Shown piece after piece: positions 1 to 12,343 of a stretch of DNA of 64,000 nucleotides. The DNA comes from Rhizorhabdus phycosphaerae (GTDB lineage Bacteria > Pseudomonadota > Alphaproteobacteria > Sphingomonadales > Sphingomonadaceae): contig NZ_CP049107.1 in NCBI RefSeq assembly GCF_011044255.1, forward strand, positions 4,151,001-4,215,000. The letters run 5' to 3'. Below the pieces are notes generated by a model. The model ran no database searches, was not told where the DNA came from, and saw only the letters and a list, made by a program, of their open reading frames with translations. Position 1 is the first letter of the stretch; the number at the start of each line of letters is the position of its first letter. The position numbers and the translations under genes were made by a program.

Positions 1-1
1 C

Positions 2-364
2 GTGATCAACGGCGACGGCGAGACGAGCCGCGACTTCTGCTATGTCGCCAATGCGGTGCAGGCCAATCTGCGCGCGGCGCTGTCGCCCCAGGCGGGCGAG
101 GCGCGCTTCCTGAACGTCGCTTATGGCGAGCGGACCACGCTCAACCAGCTGTTCGGCCTGCTGCGCGACGGGCTGGGGACGCTCGGCCATGCCTATGACC
201 GGGCCGCGACCCATGCCGATTTCCGCGCAGGCGATGTGCGCCATTCGCTCGCCGATATCGGCGCTGCGCTGGCTGCGATCGGCTATGCGCCGACGCACAG
301 CCTGGGCGAAGGCCTGCGCGAAGCATTGCCTTGGTATTGCGGGAACGCCAAGGTGGGCCAATAG
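2..364 (+). CDS. NAD-dependent UDP-sugar 4-epimerase, C-terminal fragment (WbpP/TviC type)
   Basis: Only the last 120 codons lie in the window; the gene starts before base 1. The visible part opens with INGDGETSRDFCYVAN, the conserved segment of extended short-chain dehydrogenases that interconvert UDP-GlcNAc and UDP-GalNAc (or the corresponding uronates). The catalytic YxxxK and the N-terminal Rossmann fold would be upstream and cannot be checked. The stop is 21 bases before the next gene, a UDP-sugar dehydrogenase, so the pair probably forms one operon making an N-acetylgalactosaminuronate-type precursor for surface polysaccharide, as in the Vi antigen and O-antigen pathways. The exact substrate is inferred from this pairing. 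Confidence 0.85.
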   Translation: MINGDGETSRDFCYVANAVQANLRAALSPQAGEARFLNVAYGERTTLNQLFGLLRDGLGTLGHAYDRAATHADFRAGDVRHSLADIGAALAAIGYAPTHSLGEGLREALPWYCGNAKVGQ

Positions 365-385
365 AGCCGTTCGGTTTCGGGGGCA

Positions 386-1714
386 GTGGGCCAGAGTGAT
401 TGGGCCAGAGTGATGGGGGCGTCGTTCGTGAGCATCGATAAGCGGGTGGATGGAAGCCGGATCGCGGTCGTCGGTCTGGGCTATGTGGGCTTGCCTCTGG
501 CGGTCGCGCTCGCGCGGCATTTCCCGACCGTGGGGATCGACATCGACCAGGGCCGCGTCGCCGAGCTGCGCGCCGGGCACGACCGCACCAACGAGATCGA
601 CGGGCCGACGCTGGGCGCATCCTCGCTCGACTATGCCACCGACATCGCCGCCGGCGCCGATGCCGACGTCATCATCGTCACCGTGCCGACCCCGGTCGAC
701 CAGGCGAACGACCCCGATCTGCGCCCCGTCATGTCGGCGACCCGCGCGCTGGCGGGCATATTGAAGCCCGGCCGCGGCACGATCGTGGTCTATGAGAGCA
801 CCGTCTATCCCGGCGTGACCGAAGACATCTGCGGGCCCGAGATCGAGCGCCTGTCGGGCCTGAAGCGCGGCACCGACTTCTTCCTCGGCTACAGCCCCGA
901 GCGGATCAATCCCGGCGACCGCGAACATACGGTCGACCGCATCACCAAGGTCGTCGCGGGCGAGAATCCGCAGGTCCTCGACCGGCTGTGCGAGGTATAT
1001 GGCGCGGTCACCACCGGCGGCACCTTCCGCGCGGCCTCGATCAAGGTCGCCGAGGCGGCGAAGGTGATCGAGAACGCCCAGCGCGACATCAACATCGCCT
1101 TCATCAACGAGATCACCCAGATTTTCGGCAAGGTCGGCATCTCGGTGTGGGACGTGCTGGCGGCGGCGGGGACCAAGTGGAACTTCCTCCGCTTCGTGCC
1201 GGGTCTGGTCGGCGGCCACTGCATCGGCGTCGATCCCTATTATCTCAGCCATCTGGCGCAGCAACTCGGCCATTATCCGCGCGTGATCCTGGCCGGGCGC
1301 GGCATCAACGACGGCATGGGCGCCTGGATCGCCGACCAGATCCACGAGCGCATCGGCAGCGGCGCGCGCGTCCTCGTCCTGGGCCTCACCTTCAAGGAAA
1401 ATGTCCCCGACCTGCGCAACTCGCGCGTGATCGATGTCGTCCGCCGGCTGGAGTGGCTGCGGCACGAGGTGGTGATCCACGACCCGCTCGCCGACGCGGC
1501 CGAGGCGCGGCACGAATATGGGGTCGAGCTGGCCGGCGACGCGCTGTCGGGCAGCTATGACGTGGTGATCGGCGCGGTGTCGCACAGCGACTATGCCGCG
1601 ATGCCCGCCGACCGGCTGGCCGCGCTGCTCAAGCACAATGGCCTGCTCGCCGACCTCAAGGGCATGTGGCGCGACGTCGCGACCCCGGAGAGCGTCCGCC
1701 GCTGGACGTTGTAG
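386..1714 (+). CDS. tviB: nucleotide sugar dehydrogenase (UDP-N-acetylhexosamine 6-dehydrogenase family)
   Basis: This cytosolic enzyme oxidises C6 of a UDP-N-acetylhexosamine to the uronic acid with two NAD+. The N-terminal dinucleotide fold is clear (IAVVGLGYVGLPLAVALA, about residues 22-39). The central GGHCIGVDPYY segment carries the catalytic cysteine, and a C-terminal UDP-binding domain with LGLTFKENVPDLRNS completes the usual layout; 442 residues is a normal length. The reading frame is open from a GTG at 386, but an ATG at 413 and a GTG at 428 are in frame. The segment TGGGCCAGAGTGAT is duplicated head to tail just there (386-412), so the start is uncertain and I use the longest form. 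It pairs with the preceding 4-epimerase. The choice between glucose- and galactose-configured substrate is inference. Confidence 0.9.
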   Translation: MGQSDWARVMGASFVSIDKRVDGSRIAVVGLGYVGLPLAVALARHFPTVGIDIDQGRVAELRAGHDRTNEIDGPTLGASSLDYATDIAAGADADVIIVTVPTPVDQANDPDLRPVMSATRALAGILKPGRGTIVVYESTVYPGVTEDICGPEIERLSGLKRGTDFFLGYSPERINPGDREHTVDRITKVVAGENPQVLDRLCEVYGAVTTGGTFRAASIKVAEAAKVIENAQRDINIAFINEITQIFGKVGISVWDVLAAAGTKWNFLRFVPGLVGGHCIGVDPYYLSHLAQQLGHYPRVILAGRGINDGMGAWIADQIHERIGSGARVLVLGLTFKENVPDLRNSRVIDVVRRLEWLRHEVVIHDPLADAAEARHEYGVELAGDALSGSYDVVIGAVSHSDYAAMPADRLAALLKHNGLLADLKGMWRDVATPESVRRWTL

Positions 1715-1726
1715 AAACGGCGTCCT

Positions 1727-2599
1727 TTACGCGGCCGGAGCCTCGCTGGCGGCAAGGGCATGCGCCTGCGTGCCGTGCGTGATCACATCGTCGCCGGGCA
1801 GGATCGCCGCGATCGGGATGTCGCTTTCCTGCGACAGCTGCGCATAGACCGGGCCGAAATCGGTCTCCAGCGTCTGGCGCAGCAGATCCTCGAAGCTGTC
1901 GATCACGAAATAATTCTGCTGATAATCGTCGATCCGGTACTCGGTCCGCATCACCCGGCGCAGGTCGAAGCCGATCCGGTTGGGCGAGGCGTCGTCGAGC
2001 GCGAAGAGGGACTCGGCGTGCGAGGAGACGATCCCCGCGCCATAGATGCGCAGGCCCTCCGCCTGCCGCACCAGCCCGAACTCGACCGTGTACCAGTAGA
2101 GCCGCGACAGCCGCTCGATCGCGCCCAGCGCCCCGGCGCGCTGCCCGCCCCGGCCATAGGCCTGCATATAATCGGCGAACACCGGATCGGCGAGCAGCGG
2201 GACATGGCCGAACACGTCGTGGAACACGTCGGGTTCCTGCAGATAGTCGAGCTGTTCGGGCGTGCGGAGGAAATTGCCCGCCACGAAGCGGCGGTTCGCC
2301 AGATGGTCGAAGAAGATGTCGTCGGGCACGAGGCCGGGCACCGCCAGCACCTGCCAGCCGGTCAGCGCCATCAGCCGCTCCGACAGTTCCTCGAAATTCG
2401 GGATGCCCGGCCGCTCCATCCGCAGCACGTCGAGCCCGGCCAGAAACTCCGGCGCGGCGCGGCCCTGGAGCAGCTTCGCCTGCCGCGCGAACAGCTGGTC
2501 CCACATCGCATGTTCGGCCGGGGTGTAGCGCTCCCAGCCCTGCGGGATGGTCCAGTCGGCGGCGGCCCCGGCGGGCGGCGTGGAGGCGGTGGTCGTCAT
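1727..2599 (-). CDS. phhA: phenylalanine 4-monooxygenase
   Basis: This is an aromatic amino acid hydroxylase that converts L-phenylalanine to L-tyrosine with O2, Fe(II) and a tetrahydropterin. The 290 residues match the short bacterial form, which lacks the eukaryotic regulatory domain. The iron site is visible: PDVFHDVFGHVPLL supplies the two histidines and YWYTVEFGL the glutamate. It is transcribed away from an Lrp-family regulator, and their shared 93-base gap contains inverted repeats, so amino-acid-responsive control is likely. It ends 12 bases from the convergent sugar dehydrogenase. No pterin carbinolamine dehydratase gene (phhB) sits beside it. The ATG start follows only a weak ribosome site. 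Confidence 0.96.
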   Translation of the reverse strand: MTTTASTPPAGAAADWTIPQGWERYTPAEHAMWDQLFARQAKLLQGRAAPEFLAGLDVLRMERPGIPNFEELSERLMALTGWQVLAVPGLVPDDIFFDHLANRRFVAGNFLRTPEQLDYLQEPDVFHDVFGHVPLLADPVFADYMQAYGRGGQRAGALGAIERLSRLYWYTVEFGLVRQAEGLRIYGAGIVSSHAESLFALDDASPNRIGFDLRRVMRTEYRIDDYQQNYFVIDSFEDLLRQTLETDFGPVYAQLSQESDIPIAAILPGDDVITHGTQAHALAASEAPAA

Positions 2600-2602
2600 G
2601 AA

Positions 2603-2660
2603 GCGATCATTGCAGAGGATAAGCGAAAATGCCTTTCAAAATGATCGCTGATCGGCGATC
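2603..2660. promoter_or_regulatory. inverted repeats between phhA and the Lrp gene
   Basis: The divergent gap holds GCGATCATT (2603-2611) and its exact complement AATGATCGC (2640-2648), 28 bases apart, followed by GATCG-G-CGATC (2650-2660). Spaced palindromes between an Lrp-family gene and its divergent amino-acid enzyme gene usually serve as the regulator's binding sites. The link to this regulator is inferred. Confidence 0.5.
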
Positions 2661-2692
2661 TTCTGAAACCTCATATCGATATGGAGCCGATC

Positions 2693-3163
2693 ATGAGTGA
2701 AATCGTTCAGATCGATGCGATCGACCGCCGCATCCTGGCTGAGCTCCAGGCCGACGCCGCGATCAGCCACGCCGATCTGGCGCAGCGCGTCGGAAGCTCC
2801 TCCGCCTCGGTCTGGCGCCGCATCCGCGCGATGGAGAGCGCCGGCCTACTGAACGGCGCGATCCGCACCGTCGACGCGGCGCGGCTGGGCTATGGCGTCA
2901 ACGTGATCTGCAACATCCGCGTCCGCAGCCACAGCGCCGAAGACCGCGCGAGCTTCGAAAGCTTCGTCCGCTCCCGGCCCGAGATATTGGAATGCTTCTC
3001 CATGTCCGGCGAATGGGACTATCTCCTCCGCGTCGTCGCGCGCGACGTGGCGGATTATGAGGCCTTCCTGATGCGGACGCTGCTCAACCATCCGTCGGTG
3101 GCGACGGCGTCATCGCATTTCGCGCTGTCGCTGACGAAGCATGTGACGGCTTTGCCGGTGTGA
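2693..3163 (+). CDS. Lrp/AsnC family transcriptional regulator
   Basis: The N-terminal winged helix-turn-helix (IDAIDRRILAELQADA, then SHADLAQRVGSSSASVWRRI) and the C-terminal RAM/AsnC ligand-binding domain (FSMSGEWDYLLRVVARDVAD) are typical of this family; 156 residues is the normal size. An ATG at 2681 is in frame, but only the ATG at 2693 has a GGAG ribosome site at proper spacing (2683-2686), so I use it. Divergence from phhA suggests it is a PhhR-like sensor of phenylalanine or another aromatic amino acid, although known PhhR proteins in pseudomonads belong to a different family. The ligand is unknown. A stretch of 388-394 bases without a gene follows. Confidence 0.92.
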   Translation: MSEIVQIDAIDRRILAELQADAAISHADLAQRVGSSSASVWRRIRAMESAGLLNGAIRTVDAARLGYGVNVICNIRVRSHSAEDRASFESFVRSRPEILECFSMSGEWDYLLRVVARDVADYEAFLMRTLLNHPSVATASSHFALSLTKHVTALPV

Positions 3164-3557
3164 GGGGGAAGCGGAGAGGCTGTGGCGGCCGGAACGGCTT
3201 GGCCCGCACATTTTGCTCGGACTGCCGTCCCGAACAGCAGCTTTCGATCAAATCAGGCCGTTCCAAAACCCGCGCCAGAATGGCCGCTCTCGCCGAAACC
3301 CGCCATTCTATCCGCATCGAGCAGTCTGGCAGCAGTGCGCCCTAAACCCGGTCATCTGGCTAGTGGTACTGGCGGCCCTAAACCTTTCATCAGCACCCAA
3401 CTTCCTCCTGCTCCGCCGCTTGAGTTTGTAGCCCATCGAAATCATGATACAAATTTATCATTTATTGGTCGCAACTACCTTTTCGACCAAGATTTTCAAC
3501 CTGGTCACGGATTACTTCGCGTTTGCTAGTGAGCGTGATGCCGATAGGTAGGTGAGG
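3164..3557. other. non-coding region upstream of the nuclease-like gene
   Basis: About 390 bases with no supported gene. G+C content falls steadily from left to right toward the AT-rich gene at 3558. A loose stem GAATGG/CCATTC (3278-3308) is visible in the first half. The second half is AT-rich and contains a perfect palindrome at 3444-3461. I see no integrase, tRNA end or att-like repeat. Confidence 0.6.
3444..3461. promoter_or_regulatory. palindrome ATGATA-N6-TATCAT, candidate operator
   Basis: Perfect 6-base arms (3444-3449 and 3456-3461) separated by CAAATT lie in the AT-rich leader about 95 bases before the start of the large nuclease-like gene. The position fits a repressor or activator site. 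No regulator gene sits next to it, so the binding protein is unknown. Confidence 0.4.
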
Positions 3558-5801
3558 ATGATAGACCCCCGACTCGTTGCAAAGGCGCTGATTGACGTCG
3601 ACACGTCAAATTTCGAGCGGTTTGCTCAGGTATTTTATGGCGATTTGCAGGATCGTAACTTTGTGCCGTTGGGTGGTGTGCACGACGGCGGAGCCGAGGG
3701 TTTTGATGCAGCCTTAACTAACGATCCTGAGCTATTCGTTGACGAAGCTGCGACCAGCTTTCTGCAGGTTTCCAAAGAAGTCTCGACACGGGGCAAGATC
3801 CGTAAGACGCATGCTAGGCTTGTTGCATATGGGCGCAATCCTAAAGCGCTGACATACATCACCTCTCAGACCGTCAAAGATATAGATAAAGACGAGCGCG
3901 TTCTCAGTGATGAACTTGGCTGTCGAGTTGCCATAAGAGACGCAAAATTTATTGAAATTTATATCAACAGCAGTGAAGCAATCCAAGCTGCCTTTAACGC
4001 CTATCTTCTTCCATCGATCTCATATTTATTTAATTTTGGTGAGTCGGATATCGCTCAGAAAGTACCCGACCAATTCAACAAGACGCTTGCAGTATTTCTT
4101 CGGCAAGAAGTAGAAAGGCGTCATAATAGAAGTACTCTTCTTGAAGCCGTGTCTGATAGTCTCATTTTGTGGGCACTTCGCGATACAGATGCCGACCCGA
4201 CCAAACCTAAGGCAATTGATAGAGCCGAAATACTGCGTCGCATTGAAACCGCGCTGCCAACTGCAAAGGCCTTCATTCGAGCCACGCTCGACCATCGGCT
4301 GGGGGTTTTGTCGGCGAAAGATGCGCCCGGCGGGCGGCAAATTAGGCATTATCGAGGATTAGGGCAATTCTGTCTGCCATACGAAACTCGAAAGCTTGTT
4401 GCGGTCGAGAATGCCGACGACGATTTGTTAAAGCATCAGGTATCGTGTGCATTCGAAGACCGACTGGCTCAAAGATCGAACGAAGACACCGAGGCTGAGC
4501 GAGAATCGATTGTCAAGGTATGCCACTCTACTCTTGAGAGTGTATTCGAGCATCAAGGTCTTAAAGTGGCACAGTTTGTGACCGATGCTGACATGGATGA
4601 CGAGCTGTTCACGGATGTTGGGCAGATAGTAAGTCAAGTTGTTGCAGGACTCCCGTTGACGGGCGATATTAAAACAAAAATTCGACGACACGTCATTCTA
4701 GTTCTGCGTGGCACATTTTACATGTCCACAGCTGTGGAGCGTCGATATCTCGACAAATTGAGCAGAACCTACGTTTTGTTGCTTTTGTTGAAAAACGAAC
4801 CAAAAATTGTAGAGTTCTTTTCCTCAATGGCGGGTTCGTTTGATCTTTACCTCGGTACCGATATCATTATTCGTTCACTGTCTGAGTTGTATTTGCATCC
4901 GGAATCGCAGACGACCATTAATTTACTTCGTATTCTGAAAGCTGCTGGATCGAAGCTCATTCTCACGGAGAAAGCCGTGGAAGAAGTCGCAACCCACATA
5001 CGCCGTCAGATGCTAGAGTTCGAGAATCATTACGAGCGTAATGTCCATAGGATAAGTTTGGCAGAAGTAGAATATATTGATCGACTTCTCATAAGGTCAT
5101 TTTTCTATGCAAAGCTGGCGCCAGTTAATGGCGTATCGCCACCAAAGAATTGGCGAGACTATCTCTCCCAATTCTGCAATCCTTCGGACGTCGTTCGAAA
5201 TTCGGGTGATCGCGAACTGGCCAATTACCTAATGCGTCGTTTCGAGCTCTCCTATGAGAGTGAAGAAGAGATGCGCGCTGGTATTGAGGAGGGCGAAATC
5301 GAGCAGTTAGCTGCTGCGATCCGTGTCATCAAGGAGGAGGGGGGCTACCAAAAATCAGCGCTTAGCATCCTAGCCTACAATGATGCTTTGCAAGTGCTCC
5401 GGATTTATCAGAAGCGGCGCGCAGAGCGTGAATCCAGCCCAGGCAATCCTTTTGGCTTTAAAACGTGGTGGCTTACACAGGATGGAAAGGTGCGACGGGC
5501 AGCGCGGGATGTGGTTCGCGCCAATCAAAATCAACGTTTCATGATGCGACCCGAATTGCTTCTCCACTACATAGCTATGTCACCGTCCAAGGCAGAAGTG
5601 CACGCCAGCTACGAATCCATCTTCCCTACGGCTCTAGGGGTTCGGTTGTCGTCAGGGCTACGCGACGCCGAGTTCAAGAAGGTGATGCGCGACGCGTCGG
5701 AAATCTCGAAGGTAGACGACGCTCGCGCCGCTGCCATGGTCACTGAAATGACGGAAAAATTAAAGGCAGACGTGCATAAGCAGTTCGATGCAAAATGGTG
5801 A
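3558..5801 (+). CDS. large protein of unknown family with a putative nuclease-like N-terminus and a PIN-like C-terminus
   Basis: I recognise no named family, so the function is unknown. The protein has 747 residues from the ATG at 3558; a GTG at 3552 is possible but sits too close to the AGGTAGG ribosome site. Residues 19-90 resemble a restriction-endonuclease-like core: GGVHDGGAEGFDA (Asp43, Glu47), then FLQVSKE (Gln70, Lys73) and a KIRKTHARL helix. Residues about 428-650 resemble a PIN nuclease: YLGTDIIIRSLSE (Asp435), EKAVEEVATHIRR, YNDAL (Asp609) and WWLTQDG (Asp642). The middle is helical with no motif I can name. The gene is clearly AT-richer than its neighbours (two sampled 60-base lines gave about 37% and 50% G+C) and uses rare AT-ending codons, so it was probably acquired horizontally. 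A defence role is a hypothesis from this architecture and base composition. Confidence 0.85.
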   Translation: MIDPRLVAKALIDVDTSNFERFAQVFYGDLQDRNFVPLGGVHDGGAEGFDAALTNDPELFVDEAATSFLQVSKEVSTRGKIRKTHARLVAYGRNPKALTYITSQTVKDIDKDERVLSDELGCRVAIRDAKFIEIYINSSEAIQAAFNAYLLPSISYLFNFGESDIAQKVPDQFNKTLAVFLRQEVERRHNRSTLLEAVSDSLILWALRDTDADPTKPKAIDRAEILRRIETALPTAKAFIRATLDHRLGVLSAKDAPGGRQIRHYRGLGQFCLPYETRKLVAVENADDDLLKHQVSCAFEDRLAQRSNEDTEAERESIVKVCHSTLESVFEHQGLKVAQFVTDADMDDELFTDVGQIVSQVVAGLPLTGDIKTKIRRHVILVLRGTFYMSTAVERRYLDKLSRTYVLLLLLKNEPKIVEFFSSMAGSFDLYLGTDIIIRSLSELYLHPESQTTINLLRILKAAGSKLILTEKAVEEVATHIRRQMLEFENHYERNVHRISLAEVEYIDRLLIRSFFYAKLAPVNGVSPPKNWRDYLSQFCNPSDVVRNSGDRELANYLMRRFELSYESEEEMRAGIEEGEIEQLAAAIRVIKEEGGYQKSALSILAYNDALQVLRIYQKRRAERESSPGNPFGFKTWWLTQDGKVRRAARDVVRANQNQRFMMRPELLLHYIAMSPSKAEVHASYESIFPTALGVRLSSGLRDAEFKKVMRDASEISKVDDARAAAMVTEMTEKLKADVHKQFDAKW

Positions 5802-6146
5802 GGTGGAGTTAGCTGCTCAATAACGGTCGGTTTCGATAAGCTGGGACCAGAGCATCATCTCGGCCTGCTCAAATGGGTGCCCCCTACTAATTTCCGAGCC
5901 CCCCATCGCCGGTCCTGCGGCTGCTATCGCCATCAACGGCGGTAGGAACTGCGTTTCGGCATATTCCCCATCTCCAGTCGCCCTCCGATGGCCGGTGAGC
6001 GAAGTCTTGGCGTCCGCTTTTGGCGAGACCTGCCGTACTACGCGTCACCCGGTAAGGGCGGGAAAGTCCCAACTATCGACTTTCCAGCGCGCTGAACGGC
6101 TTTGAGCTTATGGGCCGCCGATGTATCCAGCAGCCCTCCAAACCTC
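5802..6146. other. non-coding region downstream of the nuclease-like gene
   Basis: About 345 bases in which base composition returns to the local high-GC level. I see no convincing gene, terminator hairpin with a T-run, or repeat matching the region before 3558. The short open frames here have neither a ribosome site nor a recognisable protein motif. Confidence 0.55.
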
Positions 6147-6902
6147 TTACACTTTCGCACCAATCGCTCCCATCCGCGCCGCCACGATCTTCGCCGTCTC
6201 GGCCGACCGCAGCCGCTCGCCGAACGCCTTGTTCTCCTCCGCGATCCGGCTTGCCAGCGCCGCGCCGTCGCGCATCAGGCGTTTGGTTTGGGCGAAGGCC
6301 TGGGCCGGCAGGGCCGCGAAGGCCTGCGCCGCCGTGAGTGCCTCGGCGTCCAGCGCATCCGCCGCAACGAGGCGGTTGGCGATGCCGGCGGTCAGGGCCG
6401 CCTGCGCGTCGATCGCTTCGCCCAGGGCGAACATCGCCATCGCGCGGGCGTGGCCGAGGCGGGCGGTCAGGAGGAGGCTGGAGCCGGCTTCGGGCACCAG
6501 GCCCAGCCCGACGAAGGGCGCGGTGAGGAGGGCGTCTTCGGTCAGCAGCACATGGTCGCAGTGGAGCAGCATCGTCGTGCCGATGCCCACGGCGCGGCCC
6601 TGGACGGCGGCGATCACCGGCTTGGGGAAGGCGGCGATGGCGTCGATGAAGCGGGGGGCGTTTTCCGGCACCTGGCCCGCGCCGGCGACTTTGGCGAAGT
6701 CGAGCAGGTCGTTGCCCGCGCTGAACATCGTGCCGTCGCCGCGGAACAGGACGGCGCCGATCGTCTCGTCCCGCGCGGCCTCGGCCAGATGCGCAGTCAG
6801 CGCGTCGTACATCGCCAGGGTGATGGCGTTCTTCTTGTCGGGCCGCGCGAAGCTGAGGACGAGGACGCGGTCGGCACGGTCGGCGCGGATATGTTCGGTC
6901 AT
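6147..6902 (-). CDS. enoyl-CoA hydratase/isomerase family protein (crotonase)
   Basis: A 251-residue crotonase-fold protein, probably a hydratase or isomerase acting on enoyl-CoA thioesters in the cytosol. The two oxyanion-hole segments are seen as GDGTMFSAGNDL and VQGRAVGIGTTMLLHCD. The second catalytic glutamate position is filled in GLVPEAGSS; the first acidic position of classical hydratases is not clear, so isomerase or another crotonase activity is possible. The ATG at 6902 begins MTEHIRADRADRVLVLSF, the usual N-terminus. The frame stays open far upstream, but that part lies antisense to the TetR gene and is not coding. It is divergent from the TetR gene, which probably controls it. Confidence 0.9.
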   Translation of the reverse strand: MTEHIRADRADRVLVLSFARPDKKNAITLAMYDALTAHLAEAARDETIGAVLFRGDGTMFSAGNDLLDFAKVAGAGQVPENAPRFIDAIAAFPKPVIAAVQGRAVGIGTTMLLHCDHVLLTEDALLTAPFVGLGLVPEAGSSLLLTARLGHARAMAMFALGEAIDAQAALTAGIANRLVAADALDAEALTAAQAFAALPAQAFAQTKRLMRDGAALASRIAEENKAFGERLRSAETAKIVAARMGAIGAKV

Positions 6903-7055
6903 GAAGGACTCGCTCGATGACAGGGGCAGACTGCTGTCGTCGAAAGCCGGGCCGGCGTCGAGCCCCTGCGCTGTCGGTGGGTAGGGCGCGGTGCGGCTTG
7001 GCGCGGGCAGGAAGGTGGCTATAAGCCCTTCGACGGTAGAGCAGGCGGGGCAGGG

Positions 7056-7646
7056 ATGGCGTCGGGCACGCGACAGGACGACAAGGGCAGCGACCGCCGG
7101 CGGCAGATATTGGAGATCGCGGCGCAGCTGTTCGCGCGCAAGGGCTATCGCGGCACATCGATGCGCGACATCGGCGAGCAGGCGGGCGTGCTGGGCGGCT
7201 CGCTTTATCACCATATCAAGTCTAAGGACGCGCTGTTCGTCGAGCTGCACAATGCCGCGCTCGATGCGGCCGAGGCGAAGATCGCGGGCGAGATGGCGCT
7301 GCATTCGGATCCCTGGGCGCAGCTGGAGGCCGCCTGCGGGGCGCTGCTCGACCTGCAGCTCGATCCCAATTCGCTGACCATGCCGATGATGAACGATTTT
7401 CGCGAGGTGCCCGTCGAGGTGCGCGCCGCGCTGATCGAACGGCGCGACCGTTTCGAGACGCTGTTCCGCGACCTGATCGACCGGCTGCCGCTGCCCGCCG
7501 ATGTGGACCGCTCGGTCTATCGCAACATGCTGCTGGTCCAGCTCAACTCGGCGGCGGACTGGTACCGGCCGGGCCGGCTGACCCCGCGCGACATCGCGCG
7601 ACAGGTGGCGCTGCTGTTCCGCCATGGGGACGTGCCGAATGGGTGA
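7056..7646 (+). CDS. TetR/AcrR family transcriptional regulator
   Basis: The N-terminal helix-turn-helix is typical: RRQILEIAAQLFARKGYRGT followed by SMRDIGEQAGVLGGSLYHH, about residues 14-55. The C-terminal ligand-binding domain resembles those of FadR/PaaR-like regulators of fatty acid or aromatic acid catabolism. The length of 196 residues is normal. It lies between a divergent crotonase gene and a downstream acyl-CoA dehydrogenase gene in the same direction, so a local repressor responding to an acyl-CoA is the simplest reading. The 153-base gap to the crotonase gene should hold its operator, but I see no strong palindrome there. The ligand is unknown. Confidence 0.92.
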   Translation: MASGTRQDDKGSDRRRQILEIAAQLFARKGYRGTSMRDIGEQAGVLGGSLYHHIKSKDALFVELHNAALDAAEAKIAGEMALHSDPWAQLEAACGALLDLQLDPNSLTMPMMNDFREVPVEVRAALIERRDRFETLFRDLIDRLPLPADVDRSVYRNMLLVQLNSAADWYRPGRLTPRDIARQVALLFRHGDVPNG

Positions 7647-7673
7647 GTGGCCTTAGGGGCAGGGGCGGGTCGA

Positions 7674-7702
7674 TTGCGACTGTAACAGATGTTTGGTATA
7701 AG
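7674..7702 (+). promoter_or_regulatory. sigma70-type promoter for the acyl-CoA dehydrogenase gene
   Basis: TTGCGA (7674-7679) and TATAAG (7697-7702) are separated by 17 bases, and the start codon follows 28 bases further on. The spacing and both hexamers fit a housekeeping promoter. The call rests on sequence alone. Confidence 0.5.
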
Positions 7703-7729
7703 AGCGGCAACTGATTCAGAGGATGTCCG

Positions 7730-9472
7730 ATGCAGACCTATATTCCGCCGATCGACGACTATAAGTTCCTGCTGACCGAGGTGCTCGGCTTCGACCGCGC
7801 CATGGGCGAGATGGGCAAGGAGGTCGACGCCGACCTGGCCGTCGCCGTGCTCGACGAGGCCGGCAAGATGTGCGCCGAACGGCTCCAGCCGCTCAACCGC
7901 GAGGGCGACGAGCAGGGCAGCCGCCTGATCGACGGCGTCGTCCACACCCCCGAGGGCTATGCCGAGGCTTATCGCGAGTTCGTCGCGGCCGGCTGGGCGT
8001 CGCTGTCGGGCGATCCGGCGCATGGCGGGCAGGGGCTGCCCTTCGTGCTGCAGCTGTGGCTCGACGAGATGATCTCGGCGACCAACCTGTCCTTCGGCCT
8101 GTTCCCCGGCCTGACGCGCGGCGCCTGCGAGGCGATCGCGGCCCATGCCAGCGAGGAGCTCAAGGCGCGCTATCTGGCGCCGCTCGTCACCGGCGAATGG
8201 ACCGGCGCGATGGCGCTGACCGAGAGTGGCGCCGGCACCGACCTGGCCCTGCTCAAGACGCGCGCCACGCCCAATGGCGACGACAGCTATGCGGTGCAGG
8301 GGACCAAGATCTTCATCTCCTCGGGCGACCATGATTTCGGCGGCAACATCGTCCACCTCGTCCTTGCGCGGCTGCCCGACGCCCCGGCGGGGGTGAAGGG
8401 GATCAGCCTGTTCCTCGTGCCCAAATTCCTGCCCGATGCCGACGGCAATTTCACCGTCCGCAACGCCATGTCGGTCGGCGCGCTCGAGAAGAAGATGGGC
8501 ATCCATGCCCAGCCGACCTGCGTGATGAACTATGACGGCGCGACCGGCTGGCTGGTCGGTGAGCCGCATCGTGGCCTCGCCGCCATGTTCACGATGATGA
8601 ACGCCGAGCGGCTGATGGTGGGCATCCAGGGCCTGGGCATTGCCGGCGGCGCCTATCAGCAGGCGGTGGCCTATGCGCGCGATCGTCTGCAGGGGCGCAG
8701 CGCCGATGGCGCCCGCAACCCGGTTTCGATCGTCGAACATGCCGACGTCCGACGCATGCTGCTCAACGTTCGCTCCTTCGTCGAGGCGGGCCGCGCGCTG
8801 GCGGGCTGGACCGCGCTCCAGCTCGACCGCGCGGCCTCGCATCCCGACAGCGGCGAGCGCGCCAAGGCCGATGCGCTGGTCGCGCTGCTGACCCCCGTCG
8901 TGAAGGCGGCCTTCACCGATATCGGCTTCGAGGCCGCGGTGCAGGCGCAGCAGGTGTTCGGCGGCCATGGCTATATCCGCGAATGGGGCATGGAGCAGTT
9001 CGTCCGCGACGCCCGCATCGCCCAGATCTACGAGGGCACCAACGGCGTGCAGGCGATGGACCTGATCGGCCGCAAGCTGACGCTGGCGGGCGGCGCGGTG
9101 GTCGACGGCTATTTCGACCTGATCGCGGCCGAACTGGCGGCGGTCGAGACGGCCGAGGCGCGCGCGATGGCGTCGCGGGTCGCCGATGCGCTGACCGAGT
9201 TGCGCGCGATCACGGCATCGGTGCGCGGCGCGTCGGTCGACGTCGCCGGGGCGGCTGCGGTCGATTATCTGCGCCTCTTCGCGCTCGTCTCGATGGGCTG
9301 GATGTGGGTCCGCATGGTCGATGCGGCGCGCAGCGACGAGCCGCTCCATGCCGCCAAGCGCGGCGTCGGCGCTTATTATGTGCGCCGCGTCCTGCCGCAG
9401 GCGCTGGGCCTTGCCGCCGCGATCCGCGAGGGCGCCGATCCGATCATGGATATTCCCGCCGAGATGCTCTGA
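7730..9472 (+). CDS. acyl-CoA dehydrogenase with C-terminal extension
   Basis: This FAD enzyme introduces an alpha,beta double bond into an acyl-CoA. At 580 residues it belongs to the long subgroup (about 590 residues, as in DmdC-like and FadE-like proteins), which carries an extra C-terminal helical domain. The FAD/substrate motif MALTESGAGTDL is at about residues 161-172, and YEGTNGVQAMDLIGRK near residue 434 is the usual C-terminal signature. The ATG at 7730 follows CAGAGGA, an acceptable ribosome site, and the TTGCGA/TATAAG promoter. With the neighbouring crotonase and thioesterase it forms part of a beta-oxidation-type module; the chain length of the substrate is not readable. Confidence 0.93.
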   Translation: MQTYIPPIDDYKFLLTEVLGFDRAMGEMGKEVDADLAVAVLDEAGKMCAERLQPLNREGDEQGSRLIDGVVHTPEGYAEAYREFVAAGWASLSGDPAHGGQGLPFVLQLWLDEMISATNLSFGLFPGLTRGACEAIAAHASEELKARYLAPLVTGEWTGAMALTESGAGTDLALLKTRATPNGDDSYAVQGTKIFISSGDHDFGGNIVHLVLARLPDAPAGVKGISLFLVPKFLPDADGNFTVRNAMSVGALEKKMGIHAQPTCVMNYDGATGWLVGEPHRGLAAMFTMMNAERLMVGIQGLGIAGGAYQQAVAYARDRLQGRSADGARNPVSIVEHADVRRMLLNVRSFVEAGRALAGWTALQLDRAASHPDSGERAKADALVALLTPVVKAAFTDIGFEAAVQAQQVFGGHGYIREWGMEQFVRDARIAQIYEGTNGVQAMDLIGRKLTLAGGAVVDGYFDLIAAELAAVETAEARAMASRVADALTELRAITASVRGASVDVAGAAAVDYLRLFALVSMGWMWVRMVDAARSDEPLHAAKRGVGAYYVRRVLPQALGLAAAIREGADPIMDIPAEML

Positions 9473-9478
9473 ACGGGT

Positions 9479-9503
9479 GGGCCGGCGCTGCGTGCGTCGG
9501 CCC
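9479..9503 (+). terminator. hairpin after the acyl-CoA dehydrogenase gene
   Basis: GGGCCG (9479-9484) pairs with CGGCCC (9498-9503) six bases past the stop, in the gap between convergent genes. There is no T-run, so it may only stabilise the RNA end or mark a factor-dependent stop. Confidence 0.35.
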
Positions 9504-9510
9504 CGCTCGC

Positions 9511-9948
9511 TCAGTCGAGCAGCAACTCCCCGAACGCCGCGCGCCAGTCTTCGGGCAGCGGCACCGGCCGCCGCGAGGCGCGGTCGACATAGACATGGGT
9601 GAAGCGGCCCTGCGCGGCCGCTTCGTCCTTTCCGGCGCCGAAGGCCCCGAGCCGATAGGTGACGCTCGACGTCCCGATCTTCTCCACCGCCAGCCCGATC
9701 TCGACCACCTCCGGATAAGCGAGCGACGCCGCATAGCGGCAGGCCGTCTCGACCACGAGGCCGATCGGATTGCCCTTCTCGATGTCGAGCAGGCCGCGCT
9801 CGATCAGCCAGGCGTTCACCGCCGTGTCGAACCAGCGATAATGGACCGCATTGTTGACATGACCATAGATGTCATTGTCCGCCCATAGCGTCTGGATGCG
9901 CGTCCAGTGGCGATAAGCGGGGCGGGGTGAAAGGGGCGTGCGGTCCAT
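9511..9948 (-). CDS. hotdog-fold acyl-CoA thioesterase
   Basis: A 145-residue protein of the 4-hydroxybenzoyl-CoA thioesterase/YbgC family, which hydrolyses acyl-CoA thioesters in the cytosol. The signature DNDIYGHVNNAVHYRWFD near residues 20-37 contains the catalytic aspartate region and the start of the long hotdog helix. The start codon abuts the stop of the upstream alcohol dehydrogenase gene (TGA then ATG with no gap), so the two are translationally coupled. It converges with the acyl-CoA dehydrogenase gene. Its natural substrate is unknown. Confidence 0.9.
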   Translation of the reverse strand: MDRTPLSPRPAYRHWTRIQTLWADNDIYGHVNNAVHYRWFDTAVNAWLIERGLLDIEKGNPIGLVVETACRYAASLAYPEVVEIGLAVEKIGTSSVTYRLGAFGAGKDEAAAQGRFTHVYVDRASRRPVPLPEDWRAAFGELLLD

Positions 9949-11082
9949 TCAGTCGTCCTCGGGGGATGCGCCGGGCAGGACGATCTGGCGGATCGCTTCG
10001 CCCGCCGCCAGCCGGTCCATCAGCAGGTTGATGTCGTCGAGCGGGCTGACCGATGTGAGCAGCCGCTCCACCGGCAGCCGCCCGGCGCGCCACAGCGCGA
10101 TGTAGCGGGGAATGTCGCGCGCCGGAATGGCGTCGCCCATATAGCTGCCGATCAGCGTCTTGCCCTCCGCGACCAGCGAGATCGCCGGGATCGACAGCAT
10201 CTCCTGAGGGTTGGGCAGGCCGACCGTCGCGATGCGCCCGCCCCGCGCGGCGCCGGCATAGGCCTGGGCCAGGACGGCCGCCTTGCCCACCGTCTCGATC
10301 ACCACCTGCGACCGTGGGAGTGCCTCGGCATCATCCGGCGCGAAGGCGCGCGCCGCGCCGAGTTCGAGCGCCAGCGCCCGCTTGTCGGGCGATGGATCGA
10401 CCACGCAGATATCGATCGCGCCACCCGCCACCGCGCCGAGCAGGGCGGCGAGGCCGACCCCGCCGAGCCCCCAGATGGTCACCGTTTCGCCGGGCGCGAG
10501 GCGCGCGCTGTTCCACACCGCGCCGACCCCGGTCAGCACCGCGCAGCCGAACAAAGCGGCGATCTCGGGCGGAATGTCGCGGTCGATCTTCACCGCCGAT
10601 CGGCGATCGACGACCGCATGGCTGGCGAAGGCGGACACGCCCAGATGATGGTGGACCGGCTCGCCGTCCCGCGACAGCCGGCATCCGCCCTGCAGCAACT
10701 CACCCTTGCCGTTGGCGGCCGCCCCACGCGGGCAGAGGTAGCCGCGTCCCGACGCGCATTCCTCGCACGACCCGCAGGCGGGCAGGAAGACGAGGACCAC
10801 CCGGTCGCCAATTGCGAAATCCATGTCCGCTGCGTCGCCCAAGCCCATGACCGTGGCGCAGGCTTCGTGGCCCAGCGCCATCGGCATCGGGCGCGGGCGA
10901 TCGCCGTTGATCACCGACAGGTCCGAATGGCAGAGCCCCGCCGCTTCGATCCGGACGAGCAACTCGCCTGGGCGCGGCGCTGCGAGATGAAGCGGTGCAA
11001 GCCGCAGGGGCTTCGACGTCTCGAACGGGGCTTCGCTGCAACCGCAGCGGTCGAGCGTTGCCGCTCTTATGGTCATGGTCAT
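9949..11082 (-). CDS. zinc-dependent alcohol dehydrogenase (MDR superfamily)
   Basis: An NAD(P)-dependent medium-chain dehydrogenase of 377 residues. Catalytic zinc ligands are seen in GLCHSDLSVINGDRP and GHEACATV, the structural-zinc loop in CGSCEECASGRGYLC, and the coenzyme fold in VTIWGLGGVGLAALLGA. The overall pattern is close to class III-type/mycothiol- or glutathione-related alcohol dehydrogenases. The ATG at 11082 has AGGAGG ten bases upstream. It is co-transcribed with the thioesterase downstream (adjacent stop and start). Alcohol oxidation feeding an acyl-CoA pathway fits the context; the substrate is not determined. Confidence 0.93.
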   Translation of the reverse strand: MTMTIRAATLDRCGCSEAPFETSKPLRLAPLHLAAPRPGELLVRIEAAGLCHSDLSVINGDRPRPMPMALGHEACATVMGLGDAADMDFAIGDRVVLVFLPACGSCEECASGRGYLCPRGAAANGKGELLQGGCRLSRDGEPVHHHLGVSAFASHAVVDRRSAVKIDRDIPPEIAALFGCAVLTGVGAVWNSARLAPGETVTIWGLGGVGLAALLGAVAGGAIDICVVDPSPDKRALALELGAARAFAPDDAEALPRSQVVIETVGKAAVLAQAYAGAARGGRIATVGLPNPQEMLSIPAISLVAEGKTLIGSYMGDAIPARDIPRYIALWRAGRLPVERLLTSVSPLDDINLLMDRLAAGEAIRQIVLPGASPEDD

Positions 11083-11261: not shown

Positions 11262-12343
11262 ATGAGCATGATCGATCGCGAAGCCGATGCGCAGGATGCG
11301 CTTTCCGCCATTGCCAAGGCGGCGCTGTTCAGCGGCGGCAGCGACGACAGCGGGAGCGGATCGGGCAACGACGATGACCCGCAGGACGACAGCGAAGACG
11401 GTCCTGACGACGATTCCCGCGACGATGACGACCGCGACGGCGACGGTTCCGATGACGATCTGGTCGACGGATCGGACGATTCCGACATCGAACATGGCGG
11501 CCTCGGCGACGACTCCATTCTCGGCGGCGGCGGCGACGACGATCTGGGCGGCGACGATGGCGACGACGACCTCGAAGGCGAGGATGGCGACGACAGCCTG
11601 TCGGGCGGCAGCGGCAGCGACCATCTCGGCGGTGGACGTGGACGCGACCATCTGCGCGGCGACGATGGCGACGACGACCTGAGCGGCGGTGACGACGATG
11701 ACGATCTGGAAGGCGGCGAGGGCGGCGATCGCCTCGATGGCGGCAACGGGCATGACGCCCTTTATGGCGGCAATGGTCGCGACACGCTGATCGGCGGCAG
11801 CGGCAACGACCATCTCTATGGCCGCAGCGCCAGCGGCGGGGCCGACGATGCCGACAGTCTGTCGGGCGGCGACGGCTCGGACTATCTACAAGGCAATGCC
11901 GGGGCGGATACGCTGGTCGGCGGTTCCGGTTCCGACCGGATCAATGGTGGCGCGGACAACGACTCCCTGTCGGGCGATGCCGGCAATGATCGCCTCAACG
12001 GCAATCTCGGCAAGCCGACGTCTTCAAATTTTCCTCCGACTCGGCACTGTATTCGGGTAGCGGCGTCGAGACCATCGGCGACTTCCAGCATGGCATCGAC
12101 GAAATCGACCTCGATTTCGATCCTGTCGCGCTGCTCAGCGCCACGGCGGCCGACCTGACGGCGGCCCAGACCGCCGCTCAGGCGGCGATCGACGGCCATG
12201 CCGGCAACAACGAAGTCGTTGCGGTCACCGTGGGGGTCGACACCTATCTGTTCTTCGCGGCGAGCGGGGGCAGTATGATCGACTCTGCCATCAAGCTCGC
12301 CGGCGTTACCCCCGGTCTGATCGACCTCGGCGACTTCGACTGA
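11262..12343 (+). pseudogene. RTX-type calcium-binding repeat protein, frameshifted
   Basis: The first 250 codons form an extremely aspartate-rich protein. An Asp/Ser-rich start is followed by many nine-residue RTX repeats such as GGNGRDTLIGGSGNDHLYG, which bind calcium after secretion. Around base 12012 the frame changes: reading on in the original frame gives unrelated residues and a stop at 12158. The -1 frame from 12014 continues as ADVFKFSSDSALYSGSG and ETIGDFQHGIDEIDLDF, the standard C-terminal module of RTX proteins, for 109 codons to TGA at 12341-12343. The gene is therefore either mutated, affected by a sequencing error, or shifted during translation; I see no classic slippery heptamer. 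There is no N-terminal signal peptide, as expected for type I secretion substrates. No type I secretion genes are adjacent. Confidence 0.7.

Follow-up and report, generated by a model that had tools for sequence, protein, structure and literature searches.

The gene at 3558–5801 (+) of the window, the 64,000-nucleotide stretch of Rhizorhabdus phycosphaerae DNA analysed here, encodes a protein with two predicted nuclease folds that we judge likely to be a stand-alone, acquired anti-phage protein of the abortive-infection type, in which a PD-(D/E)XK-fold effector is joined through a winged-helix and helical middle to a VapC-type PIN domain (Table 1). Because its family is rare, unnamed and occurs beside known anti-phage genes, the protein is probably an uncatalogued one-protein bacterial immune system. 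Our computations returned an intact gene, its acquisition, both folds, conservation of the acidic sites, homologues in defence and mobile-element neighbourhoods, and no conserved partner.

An AT-rich gene in a strain-variable insert

The intact ORF encodes 747 aa from the ATG at 3558; an alternative longer frame from a GTG at 3552 would give 749 aa, and it is the ATG that is consistent with the starts of the homologues. The purine-rich stretch AGGTAGGTGAGG ahead of this ATG is a possible ribosome-binding site. With a G+C content of 48.8% and a GC3 of 0.50, the ORF is the lowest on both measures among the long ORFs of the window, a mechanically chosen comparison set whose other members average 65.9% (s.d. 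2.6) and 0.78, respectively, and its 5-kb flanks reach 67.7%, in agreement with the original prediction of a base composition below the local average. The same holds across the family: at each of the ten loci checked, G+C is lower in the gene than in the flanking DNA (in L040, for instance, 35 against 63%).

In a BLAST comparison with the nearest relative (G008, contig L039), the window matched only over 1–3168 (94%) and 6154–9980 (93%); bases 3169–6153 are missing from that genome, which has approximately 1.5 kb of unrelated sequence in their place. The presence of unrelated sequence at the same locus shows that insertions at this site vary and that the gene is an acquisition, so that the earlier view of an acquired gene on an AT-rich insert holds, and we conclude that the gene was acquired horizontally. 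Neither gene bordering the insert is related to it: upstream lies an Lrp/AsnC-family gene (2681–3163, +), and downstream a convergent gene resembling an enoyl-CoA hydratase, which ends at 6147. The Lrp/AsnC gene is itself divergent from an ORF at 1727–2599 (−) that is phenylalanine 4-hydroxylase-like by eye, an ordinary arrangement adjoining the insertion site. Further along the window, at 11262–12158 (+), is a Gly/Asp-rich ORF whose GGxGxD-type repeats resemble RTX calcium-binding repeats. As originally noted, neither an antitoxin nor an integrase gene is seen in the stretch around the ORF, and no defence gene adjoins it within the window.

Table 1. Coordinates of the gene, its predicted domains, the surrounding insert and the SIR2-type relative
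Feature	Position	Strand	Basis
Strain-variable insert, Lrp/AsnC-family gene to convergent enoyl-CoA-hydratase-like gene	3169..6153	.	BLAST vs nearest relative
Purine-rich stretch AGGTAGGTGAGG, immediately 5′ of ATG	3546..3557	+	sequence
Gene for 747-aa protein, including stop codon	3558..5801	+	ORF; intact homologues 736–742 aa
Domain 1, predicted PD-(D/E)XK (Mrr/Avs4-like) nuclease fold, aa 1–156	3558..4025	+	domain model; E20, D43, E47, Q70, K80
Domain 2, winged-helix-like region, aa 193–288	4134..4421	+	model helices and beta-hairpin; structure alignment
Helical middle region, aa 289–427	4422..4838	+	model secondary structure
Domain 3, predicted PIN RNase fold, aa 428–666	4839..5555	+	D435, E443, E476, H480, D609, R620, D642
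C-terminal helical tail, low confidence, aa 667–747	5556..5798	+	pLDDT <50 for most of 672–747
P0004, SIR2_2 and middle/PIN core protein	L011:2837-5503	−	profile search

Predicted folds and conserved residues

The family is uncatalogued, being without a match in the copies of Pfam, NCBIfam, PHROGs and PADLOC that we used; the 747-aa protein had no significant match in these or among PDB sequences, no NTPase match in Pfam, and only chance matches in PDB-sequence profile searches with the two domains. A curated PIN family (PIN_12) was matched by one of eight members at a weak E value of 0.67, and a sub-threshold NUDIX match (E 0.1), which overlaps the PIN region and receives no support from other members, was discarded. 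Independent sequence support for the restriction endonuclease (REase) reading comes from the PADLOC model Aga_REase-TIR, which matches the N-terminus of the distant member P0002 (E 0.0013).

The AlphaFold model of the full-length protein is of modest quality (pLDDT 68, pTM 0.51), and residues 1–156 modelled separately reach a pLDDT of 82.6; in both models the surroundings of D43/E47 are poorly predicted. The five best structural rows for the full model are all PIN chains, aligning residues 428–666 with VapC2 (Z 9.3), VapC15 (9.0), PAE0151 (8.3), VapC (8.2) and FitB (7.9) over 130–136 residues at rmsd 3.1–3.8. For the N-terminal model, the top five rows are all PD-(D/E)XK nucleases, including Avs4 (Z 8.0), MspJI (7.0), EcoT38I (6.6) and Nt.BspD6I (6.0), middling values in a comparison where unrelated folds start at about 5. 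Foldseek by itself gave no significant nuclease matches in either model, and the phosphoribosyltransferase fold of its top hits for the N-terminus is the weaker reading (TM 0.3–0.4, realigned Z ≤5.1). The models thus support the originally proposed PD-(D/E)XK-like N-terminal and PIN-like C-terminal cores as predicted folds. Between them, ORC2, RPC62 and other winged-helix chains align over residues 178–288 with middling Z of 6.3–6.6, placing the winged helix mid-protein, which corrects the earlier description; the model contains one two-strand hairpin within residues 130–428, and residues 289–427 are helical, without a TPR match in Pfam.

Conservation was scored over an alignment of eight full-length family members, in which 11 of the 109 acidic residues are D or E throughout. 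Of the seven that the original prediction named, five are in this set (hypergeometric P = 7.5e-5), a placement far above chance as judged by conservation over the eight members. At the N-terminus, the proposed D43, E47, Q70 and K73 all sit where stated; D43 is Asp in every member, position 47 is D or E in every member and Q70 is kept in seven, and it is K73, present in just three, that fails, whereas E20 and K80 are invariant. Since the canonical QxK motif-III lysine position is S or T in all eight members and K73 is not conserved, K80 is a candidate replacement on the evidence of the alignment. The same S/T substitution may leave the N-terminal nuclease inactive or dependent on K80.

The proposed PIN site was likewise right in most positions. 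E443, E476, H480, D609 and R620 are invariant and position 642 is always D or E, whereas E475, named together with E476, is not conserved. D435 is found in five members, and the remaining three have their Asp two residues earlier, at 433: the distant members show the usual D-T-S/T start of PIN domains, and the subfamily of the window protein (five aligned members) shows G-x-D, with the first PIN Asp two residues on. The DNA of the copy in Rhodothalassium salexigens reads IGADLII, likewise G-x-D. The three to four acidic residues taken as the mark of a PIN site are therefore present, with E443, E476 and D609 joined by the acidic position 642 and a first Asp at 433 or 435.

Distribution and neighbourhoods of the family

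Homologues fall at 31–46% identity, with distant ones at approximately 17–21% over the full length. The closer relatives come from R. salexigens and from Aestuariivita, Rhodobacteraceae, Nitrospirae and Hydrogenophaga MAGs, and four genomes besides that of the window carry intact full-length homologues at 31–41% identity, which confirms the 747-aa ORF as genuine. The R. salexigens copy (46% identity) is frame-shifted; in DSM 2132 (L022:7980-10224) the frameshift separates the middle region from the PIN domain and reflects either true decay or a sequencing error. Distant members include P0002 in the same genus (genome G004), one in a genome from another class of the same phylum (L020), and P0003 on plasmids of E. 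coli, Citrobacter and Klebsiella; five of 5426 E. coli genomes carry a homologue, in every case on a plasmid. Sampling genomes by order, class and phylum yielded few members, and with a match in two of 398 genomes of the order, the family must be regarded as rare and patchy. Five loci were found by searching genome contigs with a two-sequence N-terminal alignment; the same scan with the single protein alone gave no matches. A prophage or virus origin was rejected, as phage records and three viral-contig scans gave no family match, with the proviso that such pattern scans miss distant relatives.

A profile search brought up an 888-aa protein, P0004, in which a ThsA/LmuA-like SIR2 domain (SIR2_2) precedes the same middle/PIN part, and whose gene adjoins HsdR. 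Its PIN domain apparently lacks the region of D609 and D642, and with it the two final acidic motifs, in an uncertain alignment. From this one example of a SIR2-type N-terminus, it appears that the N-terminal effector is exchangeable, with either an REase-like or a SIR2 domain placed on a kept middle/PIN core. The N-terminal domain of the window protein also matches the start of approximately 1080-aa proteins with a different remainder in three genomes. These proteins (L012:7071-10325, L013:1827-5144 and L041:3288-6509; about 1075–1105 aa) have an N-terminus reading PDGGGDSKVD... and are otherwise Pfam-blank; the one on L012 adjoins a phage integrase and the one on L041 adjoins AbiEi/AbiEii.

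Most homologue loci adjoin known defence genes or recombinases and others are solo, a distribution that supports the original defence reading. In R. salexigens the copy lies immediately after a complete type I R-M locus and has a GajA-like ATPase downstream, and in the Aestuariivita MAG PDC-S11 comes next to the copy, before A and B of PD-T4-4, a defence system discovered experimentally (PMC9519451). The Nitrospirae MAG copy adjoins a 1371-aa protein in which PNP_UDP, TRADD-like_N and HsdR domains are fused (L024:5760-9875, −), the Rhodobacteraceae MAG copy adjoins a phage integrase, and the P0002 copy sits between two serine recombinase genes. The plasmid copies have a Ppl-like TrlF gene downstream; directly upstream on L015 (8437-8877) is a 146-aa Pfam-blank protein, which is retained with the homologue on the examined plasmids, which appear clonal. 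Homologues are neither housekeeping genes nor confined to a fixed locus.

The copies on L026 and L020/L040 are solo insertions amid ordinary genes, which argues that no partner is needed. Across the loci examined, some of them on neighbour contigs that are short MAG fragments, no neighbour gene recurs and there is no conserved metabolic partner; therefore the protein probably acts alone, as first proposed. A VapBC-type pair was rejected, given the missing adjacent antitoxin, the lack of a conserved neighbour and the solo insertions.

Possible mechanism and comparison with known systems

The mechanism that we infer, with its catalysis, autoinhibition, trigger and order of DNA and RNA attack, would run as follows. 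In an uninfected cell the protein would be kept inactive by its own middle region, there being no antitoxin to do this. The protein would be released by a signal of phage origin that the winged-helix/helical core senses and that is probably a state of nucleic acid or of transcription/replication; the PIN domain would then cleave RNA (tRNA or mRNA) and halt translation, and the exchangeable N-terminal domain, REase-like here and SIR2 in the relative, would damage DNA, so that the phage burst would fail. More tentatively, and with a little less than an even chance, this may be a new family of single-chain immune systems that hit both nucleic acids, in which an exchangeable N-terminal effector directed at DNA or NAD sits on a winged-helix/PIN core sensing infection through RNA or transcription, and in which both sites are rearranged: the PIN Asp is displaced by two residues, and the REase lysine has left QxK for the helix that follows.

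The two ends might also contribute unequally. It is possible, if on the unlikely side, that the N-terminal domain kills and the PIN domain acts chiefly as a sensor or as an RNA-processing core, a logic already put forward for TPR-GreA/B-C-PIN systems (PMC8195603) and one that would suit both an N-terminus exchangeable between REase and SIR2 over a kept core and the PIN of P0004, which appears degenerate in its uncertain alignment; yet a single SIR2 example was found, and none of the eight REase-type members has lost the acidic sites of the PIN domain. That conservation would also fit the converse arrangement, in which the PIN RNase kills and the PD-(D/E)XK fold is a dead DNA-binding or docking module, as the S/T at the QxK lysine position in all eight members could suggest. 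We consider this unlikely, as a dead domain would need none of E20, D43, D/E47 and K80, which are fully conserved down to 17% identity, and the domain that substitutes for it in P0004, SIR2, is an enzyme fold.

An acquired gene with a role outside defence, in RNA/DNA processing, in repair or in plasmid stabilisation, would agree with the gene standing alone in the window and at two further loci and with the plasmid-borne copies; this seems quite improbable given that the other loci mostly neighbour known defence genes, that the distribution is very patchy and that no metabolic partner is conserved. That the ORF is a chance open frame or a decayed remnant has practically nothing left in its favour: the large shift in base composition and the frame-shifted R. 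salexigens copy would be compatible with it, but the intact homologues of 740–742 aa in four other genomes already refute it. We return to a stand-alone defence protein with two nuclease folds as the preferred reading. Should it hold, the known defence families gain a one-gene member that the catalogues lack, and its two naturally occurring active-site rearrangements are open to checking by point mutation.

Our search of the open-access literature for an REase and PIN fusion gave only the sources cited here, and absence there is not proof. The N-terminus of the window protein is structurally closest to the N-terminal nuclease domain of Avs4 (PDB 8dgf; 127 residues aligned), but Avs4 is a 1534-residue STAND protein, whereas the window protein ends in a PIN domain and has no Pfam-detectable NTPase. 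VapC PIN toxins are the best structural match for the C-terminal domain and have acidic sites in common with it; here, in contrast, the PIN fold carries a long insertion, is embedded in a large protein and has no VapB gene. In place of the SIR2 effectors of the ThsA and LmuA kind, found at the N-terminus of P0004, the window protein is REase-like. DS-3 (DefensePredictor, PMC13092281) is a PIN system of one protein that defends E. coli with no antitoxin and is believed to be autoinhibited (PMC13092281), and so resembles the window protein as a single-gene PIN RNase; it differs, by description alone, in that its PIN is split between the N- and C-terminus, with no mention of an REase-like domain.

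Among published plans, the closest is that of the TPR-GreA/B-C-PIN systems (Pfam PF20698, PIN-TPR-GreABC), in which a constant core of TPR, GreA/B-C and PIN carries an exchangeable N-terminal effector such as REase, HNH, SIR2, TIR or others (PMC8195603). These are predicted stand-alone genes acting on RNA polymerase, and it was proposed that the C-terminal PIN acts first on transcripts, with the N-terminal effector as a second line (PMC8195603). The window family shares the stand-alone single protein, the exchangeable REase/SIR2 N-terminus and the C-terminal PIN, but has a predicted winged helix and helices where those systems have the TPR and GreA/B-C core. PF20698 had no match in the genomes of the window gene (G000) and a homologue (G833) or in any of the eight members at E up to 10, and Pfam found no GreA/B-C domain between effector and PIN in the window protein or the eight members; given these absences, the family is like TPR-GreA/B-C-PIN rather than a demonstrated member of it. 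If the preferred reading holds, the plan of an exchangeable effector plus PIN exists without the GreA/B-C part, and because the published mechanism rests on GreA/B-C, absent here, the family makes the role of PIN in such systems testable.
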